From Acidaminococcus timonensis (GTDB lineage Bacteria; Bacillota; Negativicutes; Acidaminococcales; Acidaminococcaceae), in the NCBI RefSeq assembly GCF_900106585.1, contig NZ_FNWH01000006.1:372001-436000 (forward strand): 64,000 nt of DNA, in the 5' to 3' direction. Below the pieces are notes generated by a model. That model ran no database searches. It saw only the letters and a list, made by a program, of their open reading frames with translations, and was not told the DNA's origin. Both the position numbers and the translations under genes were made by a program. Below are positions 8,405-62,116 of the stretch, piece after piece (position 1 is the first letter of the stretch; each line of letters opens with the position of its first letter).

Positions 8405-8483
8405 AGACCAGTGCATGATTTGAGGATTTTACTTTTCAGTTGTTCCACAATTCCCTTATCAGACATATATGGGGGGAACCATA

Positions 8484-10118: not shown

Positions 10119-10120
10119 AA

Positions 10121-10255
10121 TAACCCAGATGCGGGATATGCACCCATCTACTTTGTCAGGACGGAGTTTTGACTGAGGCATGTACCAATATGTACTATGC
10201 CCCAGCCAAAACTCCGTTTTTTCGGGTATCTGGACACGTCTCGTGTGCCTGGAAA
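10121..10255. repeat. Family A palindromic repeat (A4)
   Basis: One left boundary (TAACCCAGATGCGGGATATG) begins within a few bases of the upstream stop codon. The inner arms AGGACGGAGTTTTG and CAAAACTCCGTTTT pair with only small mismatches around the ATGTACC/GTACTATG core. The right boundary TCTCGTGTGCCTGGAAAG has diverged. Confidence 0.8.
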
Positions 10256-10276
10256 GAAAAATGAAGAAAAAAGCTA

Positions 10277-10304
10277 TTGACATATCGAGAAAAATAGATA
10301 TAAT
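10277..10304 (+). promoter_or_regulatory. Promoter of the second arsR gene with possible operator
   Basis: TTGACA (10277-10282), a 16-bp spacer and TATAAT (10299-10304) make a near-consensus promoter. The start codon at 10312 is only 7 bases after the -10 box, so the message may be leaderless. The spacer holds ATATC-N10-GATAT, and the block CATATCGAnAAnAnTAGA recurs at 10711 upstream of the gene remnant, which suggests a shared operator. Confidence 0.6.
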
Positions 10305-10311
10305 AAGAACC

Positions 10312-10644
10312 ATGAAGAACATCAATAACACCAACATCGTGGATATTTTCAAGGCGTTGTCCAACGAAACCCGACTGAATATCCTGCAATGGCTGAAGGA
10401 TCCGGAACATTGTTTCCCTCCGCAGGGAACCCATATGCCGGAAGGAGAGTCGTTTGCCAATTGCGCCTGCGTAGGATCCATTTGCGACAAGGCAGGAGTA
10501 TCCCAGTCGACCATTTCCAATTACCTGGATATGCTGCAGCGGGTGGATTTGCTGGAATCCCGCCGCTATGGCAAGTGGACGTATTACCGTCGGAATGAAG
10601 AAACCATCCAGCAACTGGCTCGATTCATCGGCCGGGAATTATAA
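10312..10644 (+). CDS. ArsR-family regulator with cysteine-rich insertion
   Basis: The 110-residue winged-helix protein contains IFKALSNETRLNILQWL and the recognition segment KAGVSQSTISNYLDMLQ. An insertion in front of the recognition helix carries C34, C51, C53 and C58, suggesting a metal- or thiol-responsive site; this is inference. ATG 10312 matches the family length, but an in-frame ATG at 10261 with GGAAAG before it is an alternative adding 17 residues. A terminator and then a truncated flavin-oxidoreductase gene follow, the likely former target. Confidence 0.82.
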   Translation: MKNINNTNIVDIFKALSNETRLNILQWLKDPEHCFPPQGTHMPEGESFANCACVGSICDKAGVSQSTISNYLDMLQRVDLLESRRYGKWTYYRRNEETIQQLARFIGREL

Positions 10645-10678
10645 CCGTCAACCCCTTTTTCTCAAGAAACCAACTGCG

Positions 10679-10702
10679 GCAGGCTCTGCCTGCCCTTTTC
10701 TT
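10679..10702 (+). terminator. Intrinsic terminator after arsR
   Basis: GCAGGC-TCT-GCCTGC is a perfect 6-bp stem with a 3-base loop, followed by CCTTTTCTT. Confidence 0.55.
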
Positions 10703-10710
10703 GGGGATAT

Positions 10711-10735
10711 CATATCGATAATATTAGAAATATAA
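10711..10735 (+). promoter_or_regulatory. Putative second ArsR operator
   Basis: CATATCGATAATATTAGA (10711-10728) matches CATATCGAGAAAAATAGA (10281-10298) in the arsR promoter at 15 of 18 positions. It lies 28 bp upstream of the remnant gene at 10756. Confidence 0.4.
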
Positions 10736-10755
10736 ATATGAAAGAGGCGATCATC

Positions 10756-10896
10756 ATGAAACTCACCGAACCTCTGGAGCAGGGACTGCTCCATTGGAAG
10801 ACCCGGTTGGTATTCCCGCCCCTGGCGTCCCAAACGTCCATCCAGGGCGTGCCTGGGCCGGGCCCTGCTGCAGGATTCCCAATGGGCAACCATTGA
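10756..10896 (+). pseudogene. N-terminal remnant of an old-yellow-enzyme family flavin oxidoreductase
   Basis: A 46-codon frame with a ribosome binding site (GAAAGAGGCG) reads MKLTEPLEQGLLHWKTRL then VFPPLASQTS. This strongly resembles the start of NADH:flavin oxidoreductases (EPL..G.L..K.RLV..P.A). After about 34 residues the similarity stops and TGA follows at 10894. No further part of such an enzyme is present, so this is probably a deletion remnant. Regulator-plus-oxidoreductase pairs of this kind are common, and the shared operator supports a former regulatory link. Confidence 0.5.
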
Positions 10897-10938
10897 TGAT
10901 AGAAAATCACTATTGAGAGTATAGAGGAGGAAAAAACA

Positions 10939-11823
10939 ATGCATTTCCATGGTCCGATCATCCGTCCGCCAACTGACGCGGCAAGCTTATTCATCGAAGT
11001 CACTGCAGGGTGCAGCCACAACGCCTGCACGTTCTGCAACTTTTATCAAGATACCCCTTTCATGGTGGCGCCCCTGTCCCAGATCGAAGCTGACCTGAAG
11101 GAAGCGAAACGGGACTGGCCCGATGCGAAGAACATCTGGGCCTCCGGTGGCAACCCCTTCGTGCTGAGCACGGAAAAACAGATCGAGGTCTGGGACCTGA
11201 TCAAACGGTATTATCCCGATGCCCGGATCTCCACCTACGCCATCATTTCCGATTTCAAGAACAAGAGCGTGGAGGACATCAAGAAGATCAAGGAACACGG
11301 CCTGGACGAAATCATGATTGGCATCGAAACCGGCGACGACGAAGTGCTGCGGTTCGTGAACAAGGGCTACACCGCCGCCGACATCCTGGAAGCTGGCCGG
11401 AAGATGGACGAAGCCGGTATCACGTACCGGATGATCTACCTGGGCGGCCTGGCCGGCAAGGGTAAACTGGTGGAAAGCGCCAAACGGTCTGCCAAAATCT
11501 TCAACCAGATCCATCCCTATTACATGATGCTGACCAACGTATCCGTCCTGCCGGGAACGAAGCTGTTCGAACAGATGCAGGCCGGTCAGTGGGTCGAAGC
11601 CTCTGAAAAGGAACGGATCGAAGAAATCCGCACCCTGCTGAATGAACTGCAGATCCCCATTACCGTGAACTCCGGGACCTCCACCTCCACGGTGCGGTTC
11701 GAAGTGAAACTGCCGGAAGAACGGCAGGAAATCCTGGCCCAGCTGGATGGGGTACTGGATAAGTTCGATGACAAGACGGAAAACGCCCTGAGAAGATGGA
11801 GACACAGCCAGAGAGCCGTGTAA
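10939..11823 (+). CDS. Radical SAM protein (first of a tandem pair)
   Basis: The 294-residue protein has a cysteine cluster C25-x4-C30-x2-C33 in GCSHNACTFC, expected to hold a [4Fe-4S] cluster that cleaves SAM. GNPF, IETGDDEVLRFVNKGY and YLGGLAGKG follow as in the Elp3/MiaB-like radical SAM barrel. The cluster spacing differs from the common CX3CX2C but is typical of this GCSHN subgroup. No accessory domain is visible. ATG 10939 follows AGAGGAGG. The gene is 23 bp upstream of a close paralogue, so the two are probably cotranscribed. Function unknown. Confidence 0.85.
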   Translation: MHFHGPIIRPPTDAASLFIEVTAGCSHNACTFCNFYQDTPFMVAPLSQIEADLKEAKRDWPDAKNIWASGGNPFVLSTEKQIEVWDLIKRYYPDARISTYAIISDFKNKSVEDIKKIKEHGLDEIMIGIETGDDEVLRFVNKGYTAADILEAGRKMDEAGITYRMIYLGGLAGKGKLVESAKRSAKIFNQIHPYYMMLTNVSVLPGTKLFEQMQAGQWVEASEKERIEEIRTLLNELQIPITVNSGTSTSTVRFEVKLPEERQEILAQLDGVLDKFDDKTENALRRWRHSQRAV

Positions 11824-11846
11824 ATAGAAAGGAAGAGGATATAATC

Positions 11847-12725
11847 ATGCATTTTGCCAGTAACGTCGTACGGCCTCCCTACGAGGCACGGAGTGCCTAT
11901 CTGCAGGTGACCAGCGGTTGCAGCCACAACGCCTGCCGGTTCTGTACCTATTACAAGGATGCGCCCTTTGCGGTATCCCCTGAAGAGGAAATCGTGGAAG
12001 ACCTGAAGGAAATGGCCAGTTACGGGGTAGCCTTCCCCCGCATCTGGCTCCAGGGCGCCGACCCGTTCCTGTTGAGCTTTGACCGGCTGAAACGGATTGC
12101 CGAACTGATCCACGAATACCTGCCCTTTGTGCAGACCATAGGGGGTTATGGCCGGGTGGACAGCCTGCGGAACAAGAACGTGGAACAACTGAAGAAACTG
12201 AAAGAACTGGGTTACAGCGGCATCGTGTTCGGGGTGGAATCCGGGGACGACAAGATCCTGACCTATATGAACAAGGGTTACCACGCCGATGAGATCGTGC
12301 CCCAGCTGTCCAAACTGGACCGGGCCGGCATGGCCTATGAGGTGATTTTCCTCAGCGGCTTGGGCGGCAAGGGCTACGGCCTGGACCACGCCAAAAAGAC
12401 GGCGGCTGTGTTCAATCAGCTCCATCCCGACCGGATCATCATCGCCGGCCTGACCATCTTCCCGGACACGCCCCTGATGAAAGACGTGCGCAGCGGCGAG
12501 TTCCAGGAAGCCACCGAAGGAGAACGGATTCTGGAACTGAAGGAATTTTTGAAAGACCTGAACATCGACACCCTGATCGACGCCACCAATGCGTCCATCA
12601 TCACGGCCATCTACGGACCCATCCCGGCCCAGAAACAGGCCATGATCGACCGGCTGCAGAAGATTTACGATGTATACGGCGAAACGGGGCTGCGGAGACA
12701 GAGAGATTCCTTAGGTAGGATCTGA
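11847..12725 (+). CDS. Radical SAM protein (second of a tandem pair)
   Basis: The 292-residue paralogue of the preceding gene has C25-x4-C30-x2-C33 in GCSHNACRFC, QGADPFLL, GVESGDDKILTYMNKGY and FLSGLGGKGYG. The near-identical N-terminus (MHF..VVRPPYEAR) shows recent duplication, but the C-terminal parts have diverged (DATNASIITAIYGPIP versus NSGTSTSTVRFEVKLP), suggesting different substrates. ATG 11847 follows AAGGAAGAGGAT; an upstream in-frame start at 11796 would overlap the first gene and is not preferred. Confidence 0.85.
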   Translation: MHFASNVVRPPYEARSAYLQVTSGCSHNACRFCTYYKDAPFAVSPEEEIVEDLKEMASYGVAFPRIWLQGADPFLLSFDRLKRIAELIHEYLPFVQTIGGYGRVDSLRNKNVEQLKKLKELGYSGIVFGVESGDDKILTYMNKGYHADEIVPQLSKLDRAGMAYEVIFLSGLGGKGYGLDHAKKTAAVFNQLHPDRIIIAGLTIFPDTPLMKDVRSGEFQEATEGERILELKEFLKDLNIDTLIDATNASIITAIYGPIPAQKQAMIDRLQKIYDVYGETGLRRQRDSLGRI

Positions 12726-12822
12726 GGATCATTGCAACGCGGTCTGCGGAAGCAACGCCAGGAGAGTGTGTACGCATGCATCTACCCACGTCTGGAACCG
12801 CTATCCATGACCTCCTAAAATA

Positions 12823-12831
12823 TGCTATAAT
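12823..12831 (+). promoter_or_regulatory. Extended -10 promoter of ogt
   Basis: TGC-TATAAT (TATAAT at 12826-12831) is an extended -10 element 37 bp before the ogt start codon. No good -35 box was seen. Confidence 0.45.
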
Positions 12832-12867
12832 AAAACGAAAGAATGTTTACATAAAGGCGGGATAGCA

Positions 12868-13404
12868 ATGGAAGTCTTTGATACCTACGAATCCCCCCTG
12901 GGAACCGTCATCCTGACGGCGGACGACCAGGGGCTGACCCGGCTGTACTTTCAGGGGGCACCCGATGCTCCGGAAGGGCTGGAAAACCAGCTGCCCAAGG
13001 CCCAGGATGACGAATTCATCCAGGAAGGCAAGCACTGGCTGCATGGTTATTTCGAAGGTCGGCATCTGGGCTGGCGGCCGCCCCTGCACCTGAAAGGCTC
13101 TGAATTCCAGAACCAGGTCTGGAAAGCCCTGCTGACCATCCCCTACGGCCAAACGGTCAGCTATGGAGACGTGGCCAAAGAAGTGGCCAGGGAGCGTCAT
13201 ATGGAAAAAATGTCTGCCCGGGCGGTGGGCGGCGCCGTAGGCAGCAATCCGGTGTGCCTGATCGTACCCTGCCATCGGGTGGTGGGAGCCGGGGGCAGCC
13301 TGACCGGGTACGGCGGCGGCCTGCAACGGAAAGTGAAGCTGCTGGAGCTGGAAGGGGTGGACACAAGCCGGTTCACCCTGCCGAAGAAAAGCCGGTTTTT
13401 GTAA
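12868..13404 (+). CDS. ogt: Methylated-DNA-protein cysteine methyltransferase
   Basis: The 178-residue suicide repair protein removes O6-alkyl groups from guanine. The active-site motif IVPCHRVV has acceptor C135, and the helix-turn-helix segment TIPYGQTVSYGDVAKEVA lies before it. GGLQRKVKLLELEGV at the C-terminus is also typical. Length agrees with the Ogt/AdaB group. It is a single gene: an Rrf2-type gene follows with its own promoter. Confidence 0.94.
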   Translation: MEVFDTYESPLGTVILTADDQGLTRLYFQGAPDAPEGLENQLPKAQDDEFIQEGKHWLHGYFEGRHLGWRPPLHLKGSEFQNQVWKALLTIPYGQTVSYGDVAKEVARERHMEKMSARAVGGAVGSNPVCLIVPCHRVVGAGGSLTGYGGGLQRKVKLLELEGVDTSRFTLPKKSRFL

Positions 13405-13421
13405 TTGATGTAATTTAGATT

Positions 13422-13450
13422 TTGACAACTAACTTTTAGCCTGCTATACT
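13422..13450 (+). promoter_or_regulatory. Promoter of the Rrf2-family gene
   Basis: TTGACA (13422-13427), 17 bp, TATACT (13445-13450). The start codon is 35 bp downstream. Confidence 0.6.
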
Positions 13451-13484
13451 ACATTATAAGAACACCAAAAAAAGAGAACCAACC

Positions 13485-13922
13485 ATGCAGGTATCGACGA
13501 AATTCACCATTGCTATCCACATCTTGGCGGCAACGGAATATTTTGGCAAAGACTATAAAGTGACCAGCGACTTTCTGGCCGGCAGCATCGGGTGTAACCC
13601 GGTGATTGTGCGGAATCTGATGAAACAGTTGCGGGAGGCCGGGCTCATCGCCGTGCGCCGGGGCCCCGGGGGTATCCAGATCACCCGGCCCCTGGACCAG
13701 ATTACGTTCTACGACGTGTACGAGGCGGTGGAGACCAGCAAGGACGAGATGTTCCATTTCCACGAGAACCCCAACCCCCAGTGCCCGGTGGGGAGGAACA
13801 TCCATGCGGCCCTGGACGACAAGCTCCGGGACATCCAGAAACAGTTCGAAGACGATCTGCGGCAGCACAACCTGGGAGAGGTAGTAGGGGACCTGGAAAA
13901 GGCCATACAAAAAGAAGCGTGA
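13485..13922 (+). CDS. Rrf2-family transcriptional regulator
   Basis: The 145-residue protein starts with a winged helix typical of Rrf2 proteins: STKFTIAIHILAA, then DFLAGSIGCNPVIVRNLMKQLREAGLI and the wing RRGPGGIQI. The cluster-binding Rrf2 proteins (IscR, NsrR) have three cysteines in the central loop. Here only C98 (NPQCPVG) is seen, so an iron-sulfur cluster is unlikely or differently bound. The target is unknown; no divergent gene is present, so autoregulation or a distant target is likely. A terminator overlaps the stop codon. Confidence 0.88.
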   Translation: MQVSTKFTIAIHILAATEYFGKDYKVTSDFLAGSIGCNPVIVRNLMKQLREAGLIAVRRGPGGIQITRPLDQITFYDVYEAVETSKDEMFHFHENPNPQCPVGRNIHAALDDKLRDIQKQFEDDLRQHNLGEVVGDLEKAIQKEA

Positions 13923-13943
13923 AATTTTTCACGTTCCTTTTTT
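13912..13943 (+). terminator. Intrinsic terminator overlapping the Rrf2 stop codon
   Basis: GCGTGAAA and TTTCACGT form a stem containing the TGA stop, followed by CCTTTTTT. Confidence 0.7.
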
Positions 13944-14080
13944 GTATGCAGGGGCTTGCATCCGTTCCTGGAGCGACTGGCATATTATTTAAGGTTTGTT
14001 GTATAATTATTATAAAATAGTTTTACACAGCTCTTGAATCCATTTCCCTTCATTCTATTATCTTTATAAAGGTGATGCTC

Positions 14081-14866
14081 ATGATCAACAACAAACTCAC
14101 CATTGGCCAGATGGCTAAAATCAACCATACAACGGTTTCCACCCTGCGCCTGTACGAGCGTCTGGGACTGCTGGTACCTGCCACCATCAATCCGGAAAAC
14201 GGCTACCGGTATTACGATATGGAGCAGAGCGCCGTGTTCCACACCATCCAGACCTGCACGCTCCTGGGACTGAGCCTGAAAGAGATAGAGAGCCTGGTCG
14301 AAACGAACAGCTTCAGCATGATCGATAAAATGTACCATGAAAAGCTGGAACAGGTGAAAGCCCAGATCCAGCAGCTTTCCCTGCAGCGCCATATGCTCTA
14401 CAAAGCCCTGAATGGGCTGGAACGGTATCTGAGTCTGCCTCCGGAAGGTACGTTCACATTGCAGTTCCTCCATTCGGAGTATGTGTATTCGGAACCTGCC
14501 GACCGGGATTATTTCCATGAAGATTTCGGCAGTTACCTGTATGGTATATCGTTGTTATACGACCATCTGGAAAGCATCCATATTCCGGCCCGCTATCAGT
14601 TCTTTACCGGTTTCACCATGGGAATGGCCAATTTCTTGGAGCATCGGTACCATGCTTCCCAACTGGAAGCCTATGTGGATGAAATCTATGGAGAACGGCC
14701 CCAGGTGCTGAAACGGAAGGGACGGCTCTGCTTCTGTACGTATGTGGATGATTTTGCCAAACTGGATGGAGCACTGGAGGCCATGGCCGACCATTGCCGG
14801 AAAAACCATCTGCAGGTGGACGGCGATTTGATTTGCCGGCTCCTGAGTAAACATTGCCAGGGATGA
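14081..14866 (+). CDS. MerR-family transcriptional regulator
   Basis: The 261-residue protein has an N-terminal MerR helix-turn-helix (LTIGQMAKINHTTVSTLRLYE, then GYRYYD) and a long linker coiled coil at about 75-125. A 135-residue C-terminal domain may be a ligand-binding fold; no metal-binding cysteines typical of metal MerRs are evident. ATG 14081 is chosen because AAAGGTG sits 6 bases upstream; GTG 14072 and ATG 14075 are in frame but overlap that site. Xre-type gene lies 105 bp downstream. Target unknown. Confidence 0.85.
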   Translation: MINNKLTIGQMAKINHTTVSTLRLYERLGLLVPATINPENGYRYYDMEQSAVFHTIQTCTLLGLSLKEIESLVETNSFSMIDKMYHEKLEQVKAQIQQLSLQRHMLYKALNGLERYLSLPPEGTFTLQFLHSEYVYSEPADRDYFHEDFGSYLYGISLLYDHLESIHIPARYQFFTGFTMGMANFLEHRYHASQLEAYVDEIYGERPQVLKRKGRLCFCTYVDDFAKLDGALEAMADHCRKNHLQVDGDLICRLLSKHCQG

Positions 14867-49590: not shown

Positions 49591-49672
49591 CCCCTCTATG
49601 TGAAACCTCCTGCGTGCAAAAAATATTTTTCCAACCACTCCCCACCAGCCAATGAAAAGGGGTCACATGATT

Positions 49673-49701
49673 TTTCCACACTTCTTTTTCCATGGTATAA
49701 T
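49673..49701 (+). promoter_or_regulatory. Promoter of the three-gene fusion operon
   Basis: TTTCCA (49673-49678), 17 bp, TATAAT (49696-49701), 44 bp before the start codon; TATAGGAGAA supplies the ribosome binding site. Confidence 0.5.
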
Positions 49702-49745
49702 AGAACCAGTATTGACAGAATAGTATTTTTTATAGGAGAACTTTC

Positions 49746-52700
49746 ATGAAAGAAATGGAAAATACCATCCGTTTGTGGGAATGCATCCAGGAAGCCATGG
49801 TGGCACCGGCCTTCTGCAGGTCCCTGGGCCTTGCTCCGGAGCAGATGCGCCAGCAACTCAGGGACTGGGAGATGGAGAAAGCCTGCGCCCTGCTGGAAAG
49901 CGCCGCCGACCCCCAGGGCCGGTTTCCCGGGGCCGCCGTGCTGGAAATCCTCCGGGGATTTTTGCCGGTCCTGGCCGATGAACCGCCCCAGGGCTGGCTG
50001 AAGGACTGCTATCAGGCTCTGCTGCGGAACCTTTTCCCGGAAACCACGGAACCGGAACCATCCCCGGAGGCAGACCGATATGGAACCGGACGGCGGATCC
50101 TGCTGCAGATCCTCCGGGGCCTGTACCATTATGAAAAGCTTCGCTGCGTCTTTGATCCCCGGAGGAATATCGCCCTCCTGCCGGTGAAGGAAATCCGGAA
50201 GGAACATTATACCCGGGAGTACCTGCGGTTCTGCACCCTGGTCCGGGACCGGTATCTGTATGAATTCATGCGCCTGGGGACGGAAGTGACCCCCTTCAAT
50301 ACCCTGGGCCATATTGGCGGGGTGGCCTATGTGGCAGTGTTCATGGCTCGGCAGCTGCACGAACGGGGCGTTCCGGTGGATGTGGCCCTGATCGCCGGAG
50401 CGGCGGCCATCCACGATATCGGGAAGTACGGCTGCCGGAAGGGGGAAGAGAAGCGGGTCCCCTATCTCCATTATTATTACACGGACCTTTTCTGTGAACG
50501 GGAAGGGCTTCCCCAGATGGGACACATTGCCGCCAACCATTCGGTGTGGGATCTGGAACTGGAGAATCTGTCCGTGGAATCCCTGCTGCTGATTTATGCG
50601 GATTTCCGGGTGAAAAGCACCCGGGACCGGCAGGGCAGGGAAGTGATCCACTTCTACACCCTGGAGGAGGCTTTCGATGTGATCCTCCAGAAATTGGACC
50701 AGGTGGATGGAGCCAAACGGAAACGCTACCAGAAGGTCTACCGGAAACTGGCGGATTTCGAAGCCTATATGGAGGAACTGGGGGTCACCCTGGAGCTGCC
50801 GGAAGATTTCTCCCCTGTGCCAAGCCAGCAGCGGGTCCGCCCTGCCCGGGAATACGCCCTGCTGGAGGGACAGGAGGTGGTCCGGCAGCTGAAATACGCC
50901 GCCATCGCCCACAACATCCGGCTCATGAGCCTTTTCCGCAGTGAAAGGGATTTCGGCAATCTGATCGAAGGGGCCCGCAGCCAGACAAACTGGAAGAATC
51001 TCCGGGCCTACATCAGCATCTTCGAAGAATATTCCACCTATATGACGGAGCGGCAGAAGCTGATGACCCTCCAGTTCCTGTACGAACAGCTGAGCCACCA
51101 GGAAGAGGATATCCGGGTCCAGGCGGCCGCCCTGATGGGGAAGATCACCGCCAATTTCAATGAACGGTATACCAAGGAACTGCCCAGGGGGGTGCGGCTG
51201 CCCCGGAAGAAAATTACCAACCAGATCCTGTTCCGGCACTATCTGGAGATGATCATCGAGCCGGAACGGCGCTACACCCAGCAGCATAAGAACCGGATCG
51301 GGGCCTGTCTGGGGCCTTTTCTCCGAGCGGTGCTGTCCACCCGGTACCAGCGGGTGGGGACGGCTCTGGCCAATATTGCGGAGGAACGGCATCCCACCGC
51401 CCTGTATCTGGAGATCCTCCGGACCTGGTACGAAAAACCGGACCTGACGGCCGAGCAGCGGATGATCCTGCTCCAGGCTCTCCTGTATCTGCGGCCGGAG
51501 GACCTGACCGAAACCTTCTGCCGCCAGGTGGGGCGGACCCTGGAAAAGATGGGAGAGGATGACCGTCTCATTGTACGGATCGGGGCCCTGTATGCCACCC
51601 ACCATCTCTTTGGGGAGAAGGAGGGGAAAGAGGCTCTGTTCAGCCGGCTGCGCCGGACCATGGAACTGCCGGAAGCGCCGGGGGAATTTGCGGAAAAAGA
51701 AAGCAGCCTGTTCCTGGAGGACCTGAAATCCGGGGTCCACTGGATCATCAAAATGGCCAATATCCATCTCATGTGCCATGCCCTGCTGCAGGGCCGGGAA
51801 CGGGGCAATGTCATGCATCTGGGGATGCACCTGTGCAATCTGGTAAAGGTCAGTGAGTATCTGGCCGTGCGCCAGACCGCCGGGGAGGCGCTTCTGGACA
51901 TCGCCGATTCCATGACCTATGCCCAGCGAAACGAGATGGCGGTGGAACTGTTCAACGGCCTGGAAATCGGAGACCAGCAGATCACCAAATACGTACCGGA
52001 ATATTTGGGCCGGATGATCCTGAAACTGCTGCCGGAGGAACTGGATGAATTCCTGAATTCCCTGCAGGAAGACATGGACTCCACCAATTTTCAGCTGGCC
52101 GGTGCGGCGGTGGACACCATGGGCGTGGTGCTGGAAAATTTCCAGGATTTTGCCCGGCGGTTTCCTGAACAGGAAAAACAGAACGGGGAACGCCAGCTCC
52201 GGCTGCTGTACGCCATCCTCCGGGCCTTTGCCCATTACAACCGGGAGCTGAGCCGGGATGCCTTCCGCAGCCTGGCTGCCTACGTGTTCCACAGTTCCCA
52301 GATGCCGGAAGCACGGAAGGAGTTCCTGTTCCTCCACAGCTGCAAGAAGATCTGGGTGCTGCTCCAGGAAAACACGGAATCCAAACTGGACTTTTACAGC
52401 AATGCGGCGGTGCTGAACCACATCTACCGGTACATCAGCCAGGTGGAAGCCGCTGCCGGCGGCTTTGCCTTTCCCCGGAAGCAGAAAGTCTGTTTCTATC
52501 CCGGCACCTTCGATCCCTTCAGCAGCGGACACAAGGCGGTGGCCCGGCGGATCCGGGACATGGGATTCGTGGTCTACCTGGCCCTGGATGAATTCTCCTG
52601 GTCCAAGCACACCCAGCCCCGGCTCATGCGCCGGAAGATCATGAACATGTCCGTGGCGGATCTGGAGGACATCTATCCCTTCTCGGAAAACCTGCCGGTG

Positions 52701-54683
52701 AACATTGCCAATCCGGAGGATATCCGGAAACTGCGGAACATCTTCCGGGACAAGGAACTGTACCTGGCCGTGGGATCCGATGTGGTGGAGAATGCCTCGG
52801 CGTACCGGCTGGCGCCGGCCGAAGATTCCATCCATTCTCTCAACCACATCATCTTTGAACGGGAGACCCGGGAGAACAGCAACTGGTATACGGATGCACC
52901 GGCCGGGAAGGAGAAGGAACGGACGGCGGAAAAACAGATCCGGGGGAAGATCCTCCATTTGAAGCTGGACAAATTCTACGAAGATGTGAGTTCCACCCGG
53001 ATCCGGGAAAACATTGACCAGAACCGGGATGTTTCTGCCCTGATGGATCCGGTGGCCCAGAATTTCATCTATGCCAACAATCTGTACCTGCGGGAACCGG
53101 CCTATAAACATGTGCTGGAAGCCCGGGAAATCGGCATCGGAGAGTTCCGGCCCCGGAAATGGACCGACCTGCCCCAGCTGCGGTCCCTGCTGGAGGAACA
53201 GGGGGAGGGGTCCCTGCTGGTGCAGCGGTACCTGGCCTGGGAAAGGGAAGATGGACGGCCCCGGGTCTTCACCCAATATGTGGACGGGGGAGAAAAGGGA
53301 GGCCATCTGGCAGCTTTTGGCGCCGTCCACCAGGTCCCGGTCCAGGAACTCCTGATGGAATTCCGGGATCCCCGGGTGGCAGAGCATGTACGGGAGGAAG
53401 CCTCCGGAAGGATCGCGGCCCTGGGCTGTTTTGCCGTCAGCGGGAACAGCTCCATTTCCCATCCGGGGCAGATCCTTCTCACCGAAATCATGACAGAACT
53501 GATCAACCGGGATTTCACCTATGTGGTCTACCATCCGGTGGATCCATCCGGGTACCGGGAAGAGACGGTGGAAATCCTGATCCGGCAGGGATTTGTGGAT
53601 ATTGCGCCGGAAGGGGCACCCCATCCGGTCTATGCGGTCCAGATCAAATCCCCGGTGGTGCTGTTCCGGGATGTGGAGACCACCATCAAGAATCCCTTCA
53701 ACAAGAACCGCCGTGTCCGCAGTGCCCTGGACCGGGCCCATAACAATCTGCTGCGGGTGCTCCGGCAGCTCTATCCCGGAAAGCTGCTCCTCTGTTTCAA
53801 TCCCAGTGCCATGCATTACCGGATCATCCAGAAAGTGGCCCGGCTGAATGGGGTGTCCACCCTGGAAGATCCCAAAAAGCGCCGGGGGCCCTATATGTCC
53901 GTTCCCTTTGGGAAGGCCCTCAGTGATGTGCTGGTCCCCAATACGGTGACCAAGGCCCTCCATATCGAAAAATATTTCAACCGGTCCGTGAAGGGGTTCA
54001 CCCTGGCGGAAGCCCACCATTATGCCACGGTGGACAACCAGGTGAAGACCATCCGCTCTTTTGGCCGGCCGGTGATCCTCATTGACGACCTTCTGGAAAA
54101 AGGCCACCGGATGCGGATGCTGACCCCCTATCTGAAAAAGAACGATGTACCGGTCCTGGAAGTACTGGTGGGGGTCATGACCGGCTGCGGCATGGATTTG
54201 ATGGCCCAGCAGGGATTCCGGTGCCAGTGTGCCTATTTCCTGCCCTCTCTGGAGCTGTGGCTCAACGAACGGGACTGCTACCCCTTCATCGGCGGGGACA
54301 GCATCGACAATGCCAACAACTACAGCGGCTATGACAGGAATCCTTCCGTGAACCTGATCCTGCCCTATGTGAAACCGGAATTCATCTGCCAGGGCAATGG
54401 AGACGCGGCCTACCTGTATTCGCTCACCTGTCTCCAGAATGCCAAACTGATCATGGAGACCCTGCAGGACGAATACCAGGCCCTGTACGAAAAACGGCTG
54501 ACCCTGAAACGGCTGGGAGAAGTGATTTCCGTCCTGCGGATCCCGGATGTGGACATCGGGGTGAAATTCGATTCCAATATGGATCCCACCCGTTTCATTG
54601 AAAATGATATGGAACGACTGATCCGGCTGCGCTGGGGAGAAGCAGGCCCCCGGCTGTATGACCGGAACCGGGGCGGCGAGTGA
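49746..54683 (+). CDS. 1645-residue multidomain protein: HD hydrolase, helical repeats, NadD-like nucleotidyltransferase, GNAT, phosphoribosyltransferase
   Basis: No single known enzyme has this layout in my knowledge. An HD phosphohydrolase domain lies at about 180-330 (H189 in TLGHIGG, H223-D224 in AAIHDIGKYG, H265, D286). A long helical-repeat region follows at about 340-890. A nucleotidyltransferase of the NadD/CoaD fold starts near 912 with YPGTFDPFSSGH (H929) and has the second motif SSTRIREN at 1082. A GNAT-like acetyltransferase lies at about 1120-1300. A phosphoribosyltransferase-like domain from about 1310 has the PRPP loop VILIDDLLEKGHRM (D1447-D1448). It is cytoplasmic. A nucleotide-based product or cofactor is suggested. 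It is first in an operon with an LDH-like and a flavoprotein gene. Confidence 0.8.
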   Translation: MKEMENTIRLWECIQEAMVAPAFCRSLGLAPEQMRQQLRDWEMEKACALLESAADPQGRFPGAAVLEILRGFLPVLADEPPQGWLKDCYQALLRNLFPETTEPEPSPEADRYGTGRRILLQILRGLYHYEKLRCVFDPRRNIALLPVKEIRKEHYTREYLRFCTLVRDRYLYEFMRLGTEVTPFNTLGHIGGVAYVAVFMARQLHERGVPVDVALIAGAAAIHDIGKYGCRKGEEKRVPYLHYYYTDLFCEREGLPQMGHIAANHSVWDLELENLSVESLLLIYADFRVKSTRDRQGREVIHFYTLEEAFDVILQKLDQVDGAKRKRYQKVYRKLADFEAYMEELGVTLELPEDFSPVPSQQRVRPAREYALLEGQEVVRQLKYAAIAHNIRLMSLFRSERDFGNLIEGARSQTNWKNLRAYISIFEEYSTYMTERQKLMTLQFLYEQLSHQEEDIRVQAAALMGKITANFNERYTKELPRGVRLPRKKITNQILFRHYLEMIIEPERRYTQQHKNRIGACLGPFLRAVLSTRYQRVGTALANIAEERHPTALYLEILRTWYEKPDLTAEQRMILLQALLYLRPEDLTETFCRQVGRTLEKMGEDDRLIVRIGALYATHHLFGEKEGKEALFSRLRRTMELPEAPGEFAEKESSLFLEDLKSGVHWIIKMANIHLMCHALLQGRERGNVMHLGMHLCNLVKVSEYLAVRQTAGEALLDIADSMTYAQRNEMAVELFNGLEIGDQQITKYVPEYLGRMILKLLPEELDEFLNSLQEDMDSTNFQLAGAAVDTMGVVLENFQDFARRFPEQEKQNGERQLRLLYAILRAFAHYNRELSRDAFRSLAAYVFHSSQMPEARKEFLFLHSCKKIWVLLQENTESKLDFYSNAAVLNHIYRYISQVEAAAGGFAFPRKQKVCFYPGTFDPFSSGHKAVARRIRDMGFVVYLALDEFSWSKHTQPRLMRRKIMNMSVADLEDIYPFSENLPVNIANPEDIRKLRNIFRDKELYLAVGSDVVENASAYRLAPAEDSIHSLNHIIFERETRENSNWYTDAPAGKEKERTAEKQIRGKILHLKLDKFYEDVSSTRIRENIDQNRDVSALMDPVAQNFIYANNLYLREPAYKHVLEAREIGIGEFRPRKWTDLPQLRSLLEEQGEGSLLVQRYLAWEREDGRPRVFTQYVDGGEKGGHLAAFGAVHQVPVQELLMEFRDPRVAEHVREEASGRIAALGCFAVSGNSSISHPGQILLTEIMTELINRDFTYVVYHPVDPSGYREETVEILIRQGFVDIAPEGAPHPVYAVQIKSPVVLFRDVETTIKNPFNKNRRVRSALDRAHNNLLRVLRQLYPGKLLLCFNPSAMHYRIIQKVARLNGVSTLEDPKKRRGPYMSVPFGKALSDVLVPNTVTKALHIEKYFNRSVKGFTLAEAHHYATVDNQVKTIRSFGRPVILIDDLLEKGHRMRMLTPYLKKNDVPVLEVLVGVMTGCGMDLMAQQGFRCQCAYFLPSLELWLNERDCYPFIGGDSIDNANNYSGYDRNPSVNLILPYVKPEFICQGNGDAAYLYSLTCLQNAKLIMETLQDEYQALYEKRLTLKRLGEVISVLRIPDVDIGVKFDSNMDPTRFIENDMERLIRLRWGEAGPRLYDRNRGGE

Positions 54684-54711
54684 GCCGTCCCCTGGAAAGG
54701 AGAACTGCATT

Positions 54712-55698
54712 ATGGAAAACAACTGGCTTCATCTCAGTGATCTGCCCCGGGAAGCAGGGGTAACCAGACCTTTGTCCCTGGCCGGACGGCCGGCCCTCCG
54801 GGACAAGAACCGGGTCCATATCCTGGCCCTGGGGGATGTGGGACGGACCATGCTCATCGGGCTCCGGCTCCTGGGAGCGGATTCCATTGCCTCCCTGGGA
54901 TTGTGTGACCTGAACCGGAAGAACCTGGAACGGCTGGAAATCGAAATCAACCAGATCCGGTATCCTTTTCCCAAGGGAGACCAGGTGCTGCCGCCAGTGG
55001 ATCTGGTGGACGAGGACCATCTCTTTGCCTGTGATGTGTTCATTTTCTGTGCCACCAAAGGAACGCCGCCCATAGGGGCCAAAGGGGACATGCGGATGGT
55101 CCAGCTGGAAGCCAACCGGGAACTGGTCCGCCATTTCGGGGAACTGGCCCGGAAGGCGAAGTTCCGGGGTCTGGCCTGCATCGTTTCCGATCCGGTGGAC
55201 AACCTGTGCCGGGCCTTCCTGGAAAGTTCGGGCCTTGCTCCCTGGCAGGTCCAGGGCTATGGGCTGGGCGTCATGCACGCCCGGGCCTGCTACTATGCGG
55301 AAAAAGATCCCCGGCTGGTCCATTACCTGACAGAGGGACGGGCTTTCGGCCCCCATGGCCAGGATCTGGTGATCGCCGACAGCCTGGACCATTACGACGA
55401 TGCCCTGTCCCGGGAATTGACCCGGAAAACCGTCACCTGCAATCTGGCGGTGCGGGAACTGGGCTACAAACCGTACCTGGCGCCGGCCCTTTCCAGCGCG
55501 GCCCTGTCCATCCTGCTGACTCTCCGGGGGGAGTGGCACTACGGGTCCCTGTACCTGGGCGACGAAACAGAGGGCGCTTTCCTGGGCATGAAGAACCGTC
55601 TCACGGAAAAGGGCTTTGAATATGAGGACGCGGCGCTTTGTCCGGAACTGTACGACCGGGTCCGCCACGCCTATCTGAATCTGTGCCGGATGAAGTAA
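54712..55698 (+). CDS. Lactate/malate-dehydrogenase-like protein of the fusion operon
   Basis: The 328-residue protein starts with a Rossmann motif (VHILALGDVGRTMLIGLRLLG), an acidic strand end (LCDLN) for NAD ribose and DVFIFCATKGTPPIGAKG, all as in the LDH/MDH family. IVSDPVDNLCRAF parallels the NPVD motif. The catalytic histidine motif is GPHGQD (usual GEHGDS). The usual LDSAR becomes VMHAR: the arginine is kept but the catalytic aspartate is replaced, so activity may differ. ATG 54712 follows GAAAGGAGAA, 28 bp after the giant gene. Confidence 0.75.
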   Translation: MENNWLHLSDLPREAGVTRPLSLAGRPALRDKNRVHILALGDVGRTMLIGLRLLGADSIASLGLCDLNRKNLERLEIEINQIRYPFPKGDQVLPPVDLVDEDHLFACDVFIFCATKGTPPIGAKGDMRMVQLEANRELVRHFGELARKAKFRGLACIVSDPVDNLCRAFLESSGLAPWQVQGYGLGVMHARACYYAEKDPRLVHYLTEGRAFGPHGQDLVIADSLDHYDDALSRELTRKTVTCNLAVRELGYKPYLAPALSSAALSILLTLRGEWHYGSLYLGDETEGAFLGMKNRLTEKGFEYEDAALCPELYDRVRHAYLNLCRMK

Positions 55699-55721
55699 CC
55701 GGCCAGGCAGAGAAGGGATGG

Positions 55722-56813
55722 ATGATGTTTTACGTAATTAAAATGGGCTGGCAGGAAGAGGGAGCCACCCGGCGGGTGGACGGGGCACTGGCCTGTGCCC
55801 TGGCAGGCCATCCCCATCAGGTGGTGGACCGGTTCAGTGAGTTCGTTCGGCTGTTTCCGGAAACCGGTCCCCGGGAGCCCGGTCCCCATCGGCTGCTGTT
55901 TGCCGTGAACCTGTCCCGGGGCGGCATCAGCGTGGGATTTGCCCGGGTCATCGCCTATATTTCCCTCCATCTCCACTGTCTGGAAAACTGTGCCGGCAGC
56001 GTGGTGGTGGACGGGGAGGATGAGCTGTTCACCAAAAAGGCCGGCCGGGAAATGATCTTCATTGCCAACCGGTCAGGCTGTGCCTTTCCGGGGGCGCCCC
56101 TGGTGGAAGCCACCGGCTCTCTGTACAACTTCAACATCCAGGCCCGGATCCAGGGCATCAGCAATCCGGAGGCCTACGAAAAGGCCCTGGCCCGCCTGGT
56201 GGACCAGCTGCTGTCTTTTCCCGGTACCCCGGAAACAGGCAGCCGCCGGATCGCCCTGTTCCATGCCAGCAGCCGGGAGACTTCCAATACTCTGCTGCTG
56301 TGGAACCTGATCCGAAAGGACCTGGAGGGCCGGGCCCGGATCCGGGAAGTGAACCTGCGGAACGGGACTTTGGTGGATTGCCGGGGGTGCAGCTACGAAG
56401 CCTGTCTCCATTTTGGGGAACAGGGGGATTGTTTTTATGGCGGGGTGATGGTGGAAGAAGGGTATCCGGCCATCCGGGAAAGTGATACCCTGGTCTTTGC
56501 CTGTCCCAACTACAATGATGCAGTCAGCGCCAATCTCATGGCCTTTTTCAACCGGATGACGGCCCTGTACCGGACCGACTTCCGGGAATTCGCCAAAAAG
56601 CGGATCTTTGCGCTGGTGGTCAGCGGGTACAGTGGAGGAGACATTGTAGCAGAGCAGGTGATCGATGCCCTGAACTGCAACAAGCATTTCCTCCTGCCCC
56701 CTCATTTTGCCCTGATGGAGACCGCCAATGATCCGGGGAGCATCCTGAGGAATCCGGGACTGGAAGCGCGGGCGGCGGAAATGGCCGGCAGGATCCTGGG
56801 GGAGGAAATATAA
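55722..56813 (+). CDS. Flavodoxin-fold NAD(P)H-dependent reductase-like protein of the fusion operon
   Basis: The 363-residue protein has two parts. Residues 1-185 are of unknown fold (HRLLFAVNLSRGGISVGFAR and GCAFPGAPLVEATGSLYNFN). Residues 190-363 look like an FMN reductase: RRIALFHASSRETSNTLLLW at the FMN phosphate loop and SDTLVFACPNYNDAVSANL then MAFFNRMTALY at the flavin-binding loop. A CRGCSYEACLHFGEQGDC cysteine cluster between them may hold a metal or iron-sulfur centre, as in iron-sulfur flavoproteins. ATG 55722 or 55725 follows AGAAGGG, 23 bp after the LDH-like gene, so this is the third operon member. Confidence 0.7.
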   Translation: MMFYVIKMGWQEEGATRRVDGALACALAGHPHQVVDRFSEFVRLFPETGPREPGPHRLLFAVNLSRGGISVGFARVIAYISLHLHCLENCAGSVVVDGEDELFTKKAGREMIFIANRSGCAFPGAPLVEATGSLYNFNIQARIQGISNPEAYEKALARLVDQLLSFPGTPETGSRRIALFHASSRETSNTLLLWNLIRKDLEGRARIREVNLRNGTLVDCRGCSYEACLHFGEQGDCFYGGVMVEEGYPAIRESDTLVFACPNYNDAVSANLMAFFNRMTALYRTDFREFAKKRIFALVVSGYSGGDIVAEQVIDALNCNKHFLLPPHFALMETANDPGSILRNPGLEARAAEMAGRILGEEI

Positions 56814-60070: not shown

Positions 60071-60574
60071 ATGCAATTGAAAAAACTGGCTGTGCTGTTG
60101 ACTCTGGGAGCTACGCTGCTGACGGGGACGGCTTTTGCCGCCGGATCTCCGGCATCTCCTTTCAAAGAGGGAGAACAGGTCTATCCCAAAGGGGAACTGT
60201 TCACCTATGATAAGCAGGATGTAGCCAAGGGCAAGGGGACGGCCTATGGCAAGTTCGCTTTTGCCCGGGATAAAGCTACCCCGGATTCCGCCATCAAGGA
60301 AATGTGCTATCTGACCCTGAAGAAGGGGGCCTCCATCGGCACCCATAAACATGCTTTCAACGAAGATGCCTACATCATCATCTCCGGGGAAGGGATCTTT
60401 ACGGACGGAACCGGCAAGGAAACCGTGGTGAAGGCAGGGGATATCACCATTGCCCGTCCGGGCCAGTCCCATGGGCTGAAAAACGTGAAGAAGACGCCCC
60501 TGGTGTTCCTGGATATCATTGCCCAGAACGACACCTTCCTGAAGAACCATCCGGAAGCCGCACCCAAGAAATGA
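60071..60574 (+). CDS. Secreted cupin-domain protein
   Basis: The 167-residue protein has a clear signal peptide (KKLAVLLTLGATLLTGTAFA, cleavage near residue 23) and one cupin barrel. Motif 1 is GTHKHAFNEDAYIIISGEG with two histidines and a glutamate for a metal. Motif 2 is ITIARPGQSHGLKN with the last histidine. It should act in the periplasm; the role (sugar binding, oxidation or sensing) is unknown. A promoter TTGTCA (60001), 17 bp, TACAAT (60024) precedes it and a terminator follows, so it is monocistronic. Confidence 0.85.
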   Translation: MQLKKLAVLLTLGATLLTGTAFAAGSPASPFKEGEQVYPKGELFTYDKQDVAKGKGTAYGKFAFARDKATPDSAIKEMCYLTLKKGASIGTHKHAFNEDAYIIISGEGIFTDGTGKETVVKAGDITIARPGQSHGLKNVKKTPLVFLDIIAQNDTFLKNHPEAAPKK

Positions 60575-60739: not shown

Positions 60740-62116
60740 ATGAACAATCCGAACCCCGTTAAAATCGTGGAAACGGTTCTGCGTGATGGACATCAGTCCC
60801 TCTGTGCAACCCGTATGCGCACCAGCGATATGCTGCCCGTACTGGAACAACTGGATGACTGCGGTTTTTATGCCCTGGAAGCCTGGGGCGGTGCCACTTT
60901 CGATTCCTGCCTGCGGTTCCTGAATGAAGATCCCTGGGAACGGCTGCGTACCATTCGGAAACATGTAAAGAAAACCAAGCTGCAAATGCTGCTCCGTGGC
61001 CAGAACATCCTGGGTTACAACCATTATGCAGATGATGTTGTGACGGAATTCGTCAAACGGTCCGTTGACAACGGGATTGATATCATCCGTATTTTCGATG
61101 CCTTCAACGATGTCCGGAACCTGGAAACGGCCATGAAGGCCACCAAGGATGCCGGCGCCCATGCCCAGGGCACCCTGGTATATACCATCAGCCCGTATCA
61201 TAAAGACAGCGACTACCTGAAGCTGGCCAAGGAACTGGAAGAAATGGGTGCTGACTCCATCTGCATCAAAGATATGTCCGGCCTGCTGGCTCCCTATGCC
61301 TGCGCTTCTCTGGTGACGGCCCTGAAGAAAGAACTGAGCATTCCTGTGAATGTCCATTCCCACTGCACCAGCGGCATGGCTTCCATGACCCTGCTGAAAG
61401 CCGTGGAATCCGGTGCGGACATTGTGGATACGGCCCTGTCTCCCTTTGCGGAAACCACCAGCCATCCCTGCACCGAATCCCTGGTCTACACCCTGAAGGG
61501 GACTCCCAGAGATACCGGCATCGACATGGACAAACTGGGGCCCATTGCGGACCACTTCAAGAAAGTCCGTGCTGATCTGGTGAAGACCTTCCATCTGCCC
61601 AGCAACATCAGCATCAACCCCAAGGTCCTGAGCTTCCAGATCCCTGGCGGCATGCTGTCCAACATGCTGAACCAGCTGACCGAAATGGGCATGGCCGACA
61701 AGTACGAAGAAGTGCTGAAGGAAGTGCCCAAAGTCCGTGCCGACCTGGGGTATCCTCCGCTGGTGACTCCTTCCAGCCAGATCGTAGGCACTATGGCGAC
61801 CATGAATGTGATGATGGGACGGTACAAGATGATCCCCAACGAAATCCAGGATATTGTCATGGGCAAATACGGAAAGACTCCGGGACCCATCAGCGAAGAT
61901 CTGAAGAAACTGGTGCGCCGCTGGATCGTCAAGAAGACGGGCAAGACCATGATCGCGCCCATTACCCACAGACCGGCCGACGACATCCCGCCGCAAATGG
62001 ACAAGATGAAAGCCGACCTGGCTGCCAAAGGGTATCCCAACGCTTCTGTGGAAGATGTGCTGAGCTATGCACTGTTCCCGGAAGTTGCTCTGGCTTTCTT
62101 CAAGAACAACCGCTAA
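60740..62116 (+). CDS. oadA: Oxaloacetate decarboxylase alpha / pyruvate carboxylase subunit B-type carboxyltransferase, no biotin domain
   Basis: The 458-residue TIM-barrel enzyme belongs to the 5S/OadA/PycB carboxyltransferases. TVLRDGHQSLCATRM carries the metal-ligand aspartate, AWGGATFDSC and MLLRGQNILGY follow, CIKDMSGLL holds the lysine, and NVHSHCTSGMASM provides the metal histidines. It moves CO2 between biotin and oxaloacetate/pyruvate. The family's C-terminal biotinyl domain (AMKM) is absent, so a separate biotin carrier is required. The C-terminal helical domain (IPNEIQDIVMGKYGKTPGPIS) is intact. It is monocistronic with its own terminator. Confidence 0.92.
   Translation: MNNPNPVKIVETVLRDGHQSLCATRMRTSDMLPVLEQLDDCGFYALEAWGGATFDSCLRFLNEDPWERLRTIRKHVKKTKLQMLLRGQNILGYNHYADDVVTEFVKRSVDNGIDIIRIFDAFNDVRNLETAMKATKDAGAHAQGTLVYTISPYHKDSDYLKLAKELEEMGADSICIKDMSGLLAPYACASLVTALKKELSIPVNVHSHCTSGMASMTLLKAVESGADIVDTALSPFAETTSHPCTESLVYTLKGTPRDTGIDMDKLGPIADHFKKVRADLVKTFHLPSNISINPKVLSFQIPGGMLSNMLNQLTEMGMADKYEEVLKEVPKVRADLGYPPLVTPSSQIVGTMATMNVMMGRYKMIPNEIQDIVMGKYGKTPGPISEDLKKLVRRWIVKKTGKTMIAPITHRPADDIPPQMDKMKADLAAKGYPNASVEDVLSYALFPEVALAFFKNNR

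Follow-up and report, generated by a model that had tools for sequence, protein, structure and literature searches.

A question raised by the genome of Acidaminococcus timonensis is what chemistry is served by three closely spaced genes, the first of which encodes a single chain joining an HD hydrolase-like domain, a helical solenoid, a NadD-like nucleotidyltransferase, a GNAT-fold domain and a type I phosphoribosyltransferase (PRTase)-like domain. The genes lie within a stretch of 64,000 nucleotides, hereafter called the window (NCBI RefSeq assembly GCF_900106585.1, contig NZ_FNWH01000006.1, positions 372,001 to 436,000 of the forward strand); the second gene encodes a protein resembling lactate and malate dehydrogenases (LDH and MDH), referred to as LDH-like, and the third a flavoprotein. 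The unit exists, it is co-inherited, and the HD and NadD-type motifs of the fusion protein are intact. Its chemistry we infer: the module may make and break an adenylylated nucleotide, a reading to which a probability of about 0.4 is assigned.

That the three genes form one co-inherited unit can be stated with near certainty. The stop codon of the fusion gene is followed after 28 bp by the LDH-like gene and after a further 23 bp by the flavodoxin-type gene, as the initial annotation had described. Homologs were sought at expectation value (E) limits of 1e-15 or 1e-20 for the fusion (alignment query), 1e-10 for the fusion in 398 genomes sampled across the phylum and 1e-30 for the partners, with a follow-up LDH-like search at 1e-15; gene presence at loci was taken from tblastn. 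Among 61 genomes searched, the full-length fusion was found in six of the nine genus members and in one other genome from the family, the copy in G003, of the same genus as the window, being 85% identical (G and L numbers are our handles for genomes and loci); the other matches in those 61 genomes were one 45-residue remnant and six short NadD-type hits. Further fusion matches came from 8 of the 398 phylum genomes, from 5/35 and 8/21 genomes of two orders and, partial copies included, from 87 of 199 genomes of a third order, eleven of which gave two matches, partly across contigs. Within this third order, the LDH-like gene occurs in 84 genomes, all of which also hold the fusion, and the flavoprotein in 83, of which 82 hold the fusion, the remaining match being a 76-position fragment in G560. 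The fusion and the LDH-like gene, the two genes searched in the phylum sample, fall in the same 8 of 398 genomes there. The same two genes are jointly missing from three of the nine genus genomes; G004 and G008 gave no match to either, and one of the three carries a fusion remnant. At locus L049 (G006), the first 50 codons of the fusion (approximately 8321-8470, minus strand) stand beside a sodium:sulfate-type transporter gene and pncB, and this remnant records the loss of the operon in a member of the genus.

Linkage points in the same direction. The fusion, LDH-like and flavoprotein genes lie side by side in 37 of the 40 loci fetched, which were chosen among the matches (L106 stops at a contig end; L114 and L129 contain the fusion alone), and in 22 of 24 loci of a second set, in which two genomes are counted twice. 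The LDH-like and flavoprotein frames overlap in 34 of 49 loci, with starts as called here. Three genomes (G384, G484 and G485) carry a lone fusion gene, with the LDH-like gene and its adjoining flavoprotein gene elsewhere in the genome, which is co-retention without linkage. Pairwise distances over 39 loci correlate with those of the fusion at 0.87 for the LDH-like protein and 0.93 for the flavoprotein; this was not counted as evidence, since any co-inherited operon would give the same. The initial annotation had named a failure of the three genes to occur together in relatives as a ground against itself; they are found co-inherited, with gene order conserved. Carriers include Megasphaera, Anaeroglobus, Colibacter and Eubacterium pyruvativorans as well as Acetoanaerobium noterae (Clostridia), and most fusion copies outside the window's class share 31-41% identity with that of the window.

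The fusion protein is no chance arrangement, as the same full-length chain recurs elsewhere at 31-85% identity. The features by which it had first been recognised, namely its length of 1645 residues, the pair H223-D224 and the motifs GTFDPFSSGH, SSTRIREN and VILIDDLLEKGH, were all verified on its open reading frame (ORF). The opposite strand also has an ORF of 1708 residues (49596-54722), which we regard as a mere shadow of the GC-rich coding sequence. The chain was modelled with AlphaFold2 in two parts, from 73 sequences each: residues 1-904 with a mean predicted local distance difference test (pLDDT) value of 89.0 and a predicted template modelling (pTM) score of 0.87, and residues 905-1645 with values of 85.9 and 0.85, respectively. 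HEAT-like repeats took up the structure-match list of the former model, and NadD and GNAT folds that of the latter. Among the five domains originally named, the NadD and GNAT folds were recovered, the part described as helical resembles HEAT/ARM-type solenoids, and the HD and PRTase-like assignments find some support, at scores under the Pfam cut-offs. The resulting layout is given in Table 1.

Table 1. Genes of the three-gene unit and parts of the fusion protein, in window coordinates
Feature	Coordinates (strand)	Description	Basis
Fusion gene	49746..54683 (+)	1645 aa, first gene of the unit; full-length relatives found	
LDH/MDH-like dehydrogenase gene	54712..55698 (+)	328 aa from ATG at 54712	
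Flavoprotein gene	55722..56813 (+)	363 aa: N-terminal half without a family match, then an FMN-reductase domain carrying an invariant cysteine set (C-x2-C-x4-C-x8-C)	
Fusion residues 1-149	49746..50192 (+)	Helical N-terminal cap, little conserved	AlphaFold2 model, conservation
Fusion residues 150-350	50193..50795 (+)	HD hydrolase-like domain	Sequence conservation, profile matches
Fusion residues 380-904	50883..52457 (+)	HEAT/ARM-type solenoid with invariant polar set	Model, structure match, conservation
Fusion residues 912-1121	52479..53108 (+)	NadD-like nucleotidyltransferase (PGxFDPFSxxH, SWSK, SSTxIR)	Profiles, fold, conservation
Fusion residues 1128-1301	53127..53648 (+)	GNAT-fold domain, weakly conserved, probably no acetyltransferase	Fold, conservation
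Fusion residues 1305-1540	53658..54365 (+)	Type I PRTase-like domain, DDLLxKGxR	Sequence profiles

No Pfam or NCBIfam model spans the whole chain, and the parts differ in how closely they approach known families. The NadD fold is present (VIA-align Z 18.8 over 188 aligned residues, 2.6 Å, 18% identity to 4ymi_B), and an hhalign comparison with a profile built from the NadD proteins of 18 loci in these genomes gave a probability of 98.6 (E 7e-16); the scores lie under the NCBIfam NadD equivalog cut-offs, at 35.0 versus 150 and 33.6 versus 112.45 bits. This part alone gave matches to solved structures at E<=0.001, using profiles and the single fusion sequence. The GNAT fold is likewise present (Z 14.1, 141 aligned residues, 2.8 Å to 2r7h_A, over model positions 224-397). 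For the solenoid, the best structure match is the plant Spiral2 microtubule-binding domain, with a Z score (16.2, 259 aligned residues, 4.7 Å) of a kind that comes easily for helical repeats. The curated families that match the HD domain best, at E<=0.1 among 47 members, are DVU_1551 (47/47), TIGR00295 (44/47) and HDIG (33/47). The region classed as PRTase-like on its sequence profiles is matched by PF00156 (Pribosyltran) in 30 of 47 members at E<=1, with a best E of 2.6e-4, and weakly by models of adenine and hypoxanthine PRTases.

Site conservation was surveyed in 79 non-identical sequences, i.e., the window's own and 78 that are 31-85% identical to it, drawn from 120 ORFs longer than 1400 aa, so that split or truncated copies were dropped. 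The HD positions H189, H223, D224, H242, H265 and D286 are present in all 79 sequences, the metal-ligand pattern H...HD...D being supplied by H189, H223, D224 and D286 together with H242 and H265. The nucleotidyltransferase positions P919, G920, F922, D923, H929, S951-K954, Y1020, S1082, S1083 and R1087 are equally invariant (79/79). Loss of active-site residues in relatives, which the initial annotation had expected if it were mistaken, was therefore not seen for either domain in this set. In the PRTase-like domain, D1447 and D1448 are each kept in 78 of the 79 sequences, and the loop that follows reads mostly K-G-x-R; the usual motif for binding 5-phosphoribosyl 1-pyrophosphate (PRPP) is DDxxxTGxT, with a T-G-x-T loop. 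An invariant set of polar solenoid residues (W666, K669, H695, N698, K701, N729, E734 and E768) could form a binding surface. Conservation in the GNAT domain is as low as anywhere in the chain's weaker parts: its invariant positions in 47 sequences are R1216, G1282, F1283 and P1303 alone, and inspection of these sequences by eye revealed no conserved loop for the phosphates of coenzyme A (CoA), for which the consensus in GNAT proteins is R/Q-x-x-G-x-G/A. Because of the few invariant residues and the missing loop, the domain is probably not an acyltransferase, and the acyl chemistry first suggested for the operon is not upheld.

The nucleotidyltransferase domain also departs from housekeeping NadD in its own fashion. 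H20 and W122 of NadD (A10 numbering), the first histidine of the HxGH motif and a conserved pocket tryptophan, are replaced by S/T926 and by the invariant Y1020, and an invariant SWSK stretch is the family's own relative to housekeeping NadD, whose PPHK does not line up with it in the hhalign alignment. Canonical NadD scored above cut-off in all 28 genomes tested (21 with and 7 without a full-length fusion), and the possibility that the fusion serves as the organism's only NadD was rejected on this ground. On account of S/T926, Y1020 and the distinct SWSK, together with the separate canonical enzyme, the domain is probably a dedicated paralog with a different pocket.

The two partner proteins show a comparable mixture of familiar fold and altered detail. 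With the L-lactate/malate dehydrogenase superfamily, the LDH-like protein shares a Rossmann NAD-binding half, both active-site arginines and the histidine, whereas it carries DPVD for NPVD and a methionine for an aspartate. Among 50 sequences of the family, R128 is nearly invariant and D160, M188, R191 and H215 are invariant; R128, R191 and H215 are the arginines and histidine of the active site, M188 stands at the position of the histidine's aspartate partner, and D160 takes the place of the asparagine of NPVD. Because both D160 and M188 are invariant, the change is uniform and, to judge from these alignments, unlike decay, and assignment as an ordinary LDH or MDH is not supported. Most LDH-like relatives outside the window's class have approximately 85 extra N-terminal residues. 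As for the third protein, its family match is PF03358 (FMN_red), at 64.4 bits for the window's protein against a cut-off of 24 and with all 49 members matching at E<=0.1, a domain match shared with NADPH-dependent FMN reductases and iron-sulfur flavoproteins. Four cysteines are invariant in the 49 sequences, and this set resembles that of iron-sulfur flavoproteins, which suggests a putative iron-sulfur flavoprotein. The description of this gene as a two-part flavodoxin fold holds for the C-terminal half only; the N-terminal half, an addition of approximately 170 residues to the PF03358 type, is without a family match, flavodoxin-type or other, and a profile search found no solved relative of the flavoprotein at E<=0.01.

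Known systems resemble the fusion in part. In NadD-YqeK, a NadD-type adenylyltransferase and an HD hydrolase form a make-and-proofread pair, which occurs as a fusion protein or as a nadD-yqeK gene pair in mycoplasma and other Gram-positives; cleavage of aberrant NadD products by the HD part (YqeK) was demonstrated for the fused form (PMC9426524). The HD histidines and aspartates of the fusion line up with the H, HD, H and D of YqeK. By contrast, the HD domain of the fusion is N-terminal, is separated from the nucleotidyltransferase by a solenoid of approximately 500 residues and is not YqeK by profile; the fusion further contains a GNAT and a PRTase-like domain and is accompanied by two redox partners, and the genome retains its own nadD-yqeK pair, the YqeK of which was recognised by TIGR00488 at 158.5 bits. 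In 16 of the 18 loci counted, the next ORF after nadD contains an HD domain. Twenty such loci were fetched, and the two left out of the count, L154 (G384) and L162 (G573), have a nadD ORF of approximately 390 aa, a length as for a nadD-yqeK fusion. A second likeness is to the DVU_1551 family NTP transferase (NF045665), positions 214-350 of whose 359-position profile give the best curated match to the HD domain (best E 6.6e-9) and which, by its name, also pairs a nucleotidyltransferase with an HD domain; only this HD stretch matches, at 28.7 bits for the window's domain versus a cut-off of 315, and the rest of the chain has no counterpart. The open-access literature, judged by title and the start of the abstract (most subscription papers and bioRxiv preprints lie outside it), yielded no description of the unit and no characterised ortholog. 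Within that literature, the system as a whole is undescribed, as had been supposed, with single domains falling within or just outside known superfamilies.

A genome in which the fusion was found without its partners offers a further view of how the parts depend on each other. G579 is a single contig, 98% complete, in which the fusion frame is intact (L140, 5647-10440, minus strand; 1597 aa); neither an LDH-like gene (E limits 1e-30 and 1e-15) nor a flavoprotein gene (1e-30) was found, and neither adjoins the fusion. In its HD domain, H189, H223, D224, H242, H265 and D286 are all changed, and in its nucleotidyltransferase P919, G920, D923, S1082, S1083 and R1087 are changed, such that FFSNIFNPFS and EIVNNI stand in place of the FFPGTFDPFS and DISSTxIR of relatives. 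Of the HEAT positions, nine were compared and each is retained. Compared with A. noterae, analysed in the same way, the median identity of the G579 protein to relatives is reduced for the HD domain (27 vs 53%) and the nucleotidyltransferase (34 vs 48%); the corresponding values are 31 and 32% for the HEAT part, 29 and 25% for the GNAT domain, 45 and 51% for the PRTase-like domain and 40% in both for the C-terminal part. In this single case, the HD and nucleotidyltransferase domains are therefore damaged most where the redox partners are gone. Because the remaining chain keeps near-normal conservation despite these damaged motifs, it appears to serve some separate function, and the G579 fusion is possibly a repurposed scaffold or ligand-binding protein.

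The initial annotation had proposed that the operon would build, modify or salvage a nucleotide-type cofactor or signal, with the fused chain channelling intermediates; both that role and the channelling are inferred. In the reading preferred here, the PRTase-like domain would form or bind a 5'-phosphoribosyl nucleotide, and the NadD-like domain would adenylylate a mononucleotide with adenosine triphosphate to give a dinucleotide similar to nicotinamide adenine dinucleotide (NAD), other than the housekeeping product. The HD domain would hydrolyse product that is wrong, spent or in excess, much like the YqeK domain fused to NadD, and the HEAT solenoid and GNAT fold may hold domains or partners together. 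Finally, the altered LDH-like enzyme and the cysteine-rich flavoprotein would perform redox steps on or with the nucleotide.

Several observations weigh against this reading or limit it. The PF01966 score of the HD part (21.2 bits) is under the cut-off of 22, and that domain is not YqeK: hhalign gave a probability of 12.8 (E 0.0022), and TIGR00488 is not among the 13 families matching it (47 members, E<=0.1). The window's PRTase-like domain reaches 16.0 bits against the PF00156 cut-off of 26.3, and its K-G-x-R loop means that it may bind instead of transfer. The Ldh_1_N score of the LDH-like protein is 21.9 versus a cut-off of 27. Co-inheritance is near-strict: of the 199 genomes, the fusion is present without an LDH-like match in G515 and G611, both with a truncated fusion match, and in G579, and without a flavoprotein match in G515, G567, G579, G585 and G637. 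The pattern of damage in G579 comes from one genome; moreover, nucleotidyltransferase residues H929 and K954 and PRTase-like residues D1447 and D1448 are retained there, and PRTase-like residues K1452, R1455, G1476 and D1518 are also changed. G483, a 79%-complete assembly, is a weaker case in the opposite direction: the sites of its fusion (L058) are intact, and the LDH-like search gave no match. Finally, no NAD-related gene was seen by eye among the neighbor families common to at least 4 of 54 loci, and no riboswitch was found at the operon start in 8 loci (gathering score) or in the window between 48000 and 60500 (E<=1), so that a riboswitch was rejected as a clue to the ligand.

A narrower version of the preferred reading, in which the unit makes a new NAD-like dinucleotide cofactor, is considered quite unlikely. 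Here, the PRTase-like domain would couple PRPP with an unusual base, the NadD-like domain would adenylylate the product and the HD domain would cut it back, while the altered LDH-like enzyme and the flavoprotein would finish, reduce or use the cofactor in anaerobic metabolism.

Two other explanations hold up best among the rivals, each being rather unlikely. The first is metabolite repair of damaged NAD, its phosphorylated or reduced forms, or their precursors. In such a scheme, the HD domain would cut aberrant dinucleotides, the NadD-like domain would rebuild them, and the dehydrogenase and flavoprotein would re-oxidise or reduce damaged nicotinamide forms. The established proofreading pair YqeK-NadD (PMC9426524) speaks for this explanation, as do the redox fold families of both partners and the dispensability of the unit, evident from the joint absence of the fusion and LDH-like genes within the genus. 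However, the PRTase-like domain is not obviously needed for repair, and a NadD and HD pair already exists in these organisms, in view of the NadD in all genomes tested and the HD ORF that follows nadD in nearly all loci examined.

The second explanation, to which a similarly low likelihood is given, is a sensor or regulator in which the HEAT, GNAT and PRTase-like parts bind PRPP or an NAD-type nucleotide along with partner proteins, and the HD and nucleotidyltransferase domains set or erase a modification (e.g., adenosine monophosphate) on a target such as the partner enzymes. G579 agrees with it, in that the HEAT, GNAT, PRTase-like and C-terminal parts are near-normal there despite the damaged HD and nucleotidyltransferase domains, and the invariant polar set of the HEAT solenoid would provide a candidate binding surface. 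Nevertheless, the NadD-type entries among the structure matches are, by name, small-molecule enzymes, and no constant fourth gene stands nearby as a target: when neighbors were clustered for 54 chosen loci, the three families of the unit occurred in 54, 51 and 49 loci and the next sense-strand families in at most 15, so that a constant fourth gene was rejected.

Ordinary NAD salvage, in which the fusion would supply the usual NAD pool as an isozyme of NadD and PRTase, is improbable. The nucleotidyltransferase domain is closest to NadD, and pncB lies approximately 1.6 kb downstream of the unit in the window, as first annotated. However, housekeeping NadD is present in all genomes tested, the NadD residues H20 and W122 are replaced in the fusion, and the two partners would be left unexplained. 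Moreover, among 66 stretches scanned, which extend no more than some kilobases in either direction, pncB adjoins an intact operon in two, namely the window and L046 (it also stands beside the fusion remnant in L049); its proximity is local synteny, and pncB was accordingly rejected as a functional neighbor. Very improbable is a role in RNA or tRNA chemistry or in defence, with the solenoid binding RNA or protein and the catalytic domains adding or removing end nucleotides, for although HEAT-type solenoids often bind macromolecules and the polar set between residues 666 and 768 is invariant, two redox-family proteins are near-strict partners, PADLOC models gave no match to the fusion or flavoprotein and a single weak one to the LDH-like protein (E 0.078), and no relative was found in the phage records or viral contigs searched, so that a phage or defence origin was rejected.

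Some features of the neighborhood and of single copies are recorded here in their own right. L-serine dehydratase subunits (upstream in 15 and 13 of the 54 loci) and a short UppS-like homolog (14/54) sit approximately 1-2.4 kb 5' of the fusion in a subset of genomes; these assignments were read by eye, with no family search, and the genes are taken as clade synteny. Beyond pncB, the window contains a small cupin gene (60071-60571) and a carboxylase-type gene with HMGL-like and PYC_OADA domains (60740-62113). A cobalamin riboswitch lies 3' of the flavoprotein gene in L097 only. At L137 and L138 (G484 and G485), the flavoprotein gene shares its last 4 bp with a gene read by eye as dihydrofolate reductase-like; because no such gene comes after the pair in G384, a member of the same genus, it was not used as a clue. 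At L023 (Eubacterium pyruvativorans i6, 7704-14795), the fusion is 58% identical to the window's, compared with approximately 59% for Megasphaera copies, and the LDH-like gene is without the long N-terminal extension; this Megasphaera-level identity and the missing extension together suggest horizontal transfer. The chain occurs as two adjoining frames in G607 and G640, of one genus, split in the solenoid near profile positions 812 and 795; these are either frameshifts or true two-subunit versions. The only match in the plasmid collection, NZ_CP154629.1, is a 2.63-Mb Acetoanaerobium noterae 'plasmid' record that looks chromosomal.

The module is open to direct test, as genomes of one genus differ in whether they carry it, a degenerate copy stands alone elsewhere and point mutants would be clean. 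Redox or nucleotide cofactors that are new to science are seldom found. A NadD paralog, HD hydrolase-like and PRTase-like domains, an altered dehydrogenase and a flavoprotein, inherited together almost without exception, occur in 87 of the 199 genomes sampled from one order and in Negativicutes such as Acidaminococcus and Megasphaera, and this set points to chemistry absent from current maps. Even if the product were a known nucleotide, the unit would extend built-in proofreading from the NadD-YqeK pair to a five-domain machine.

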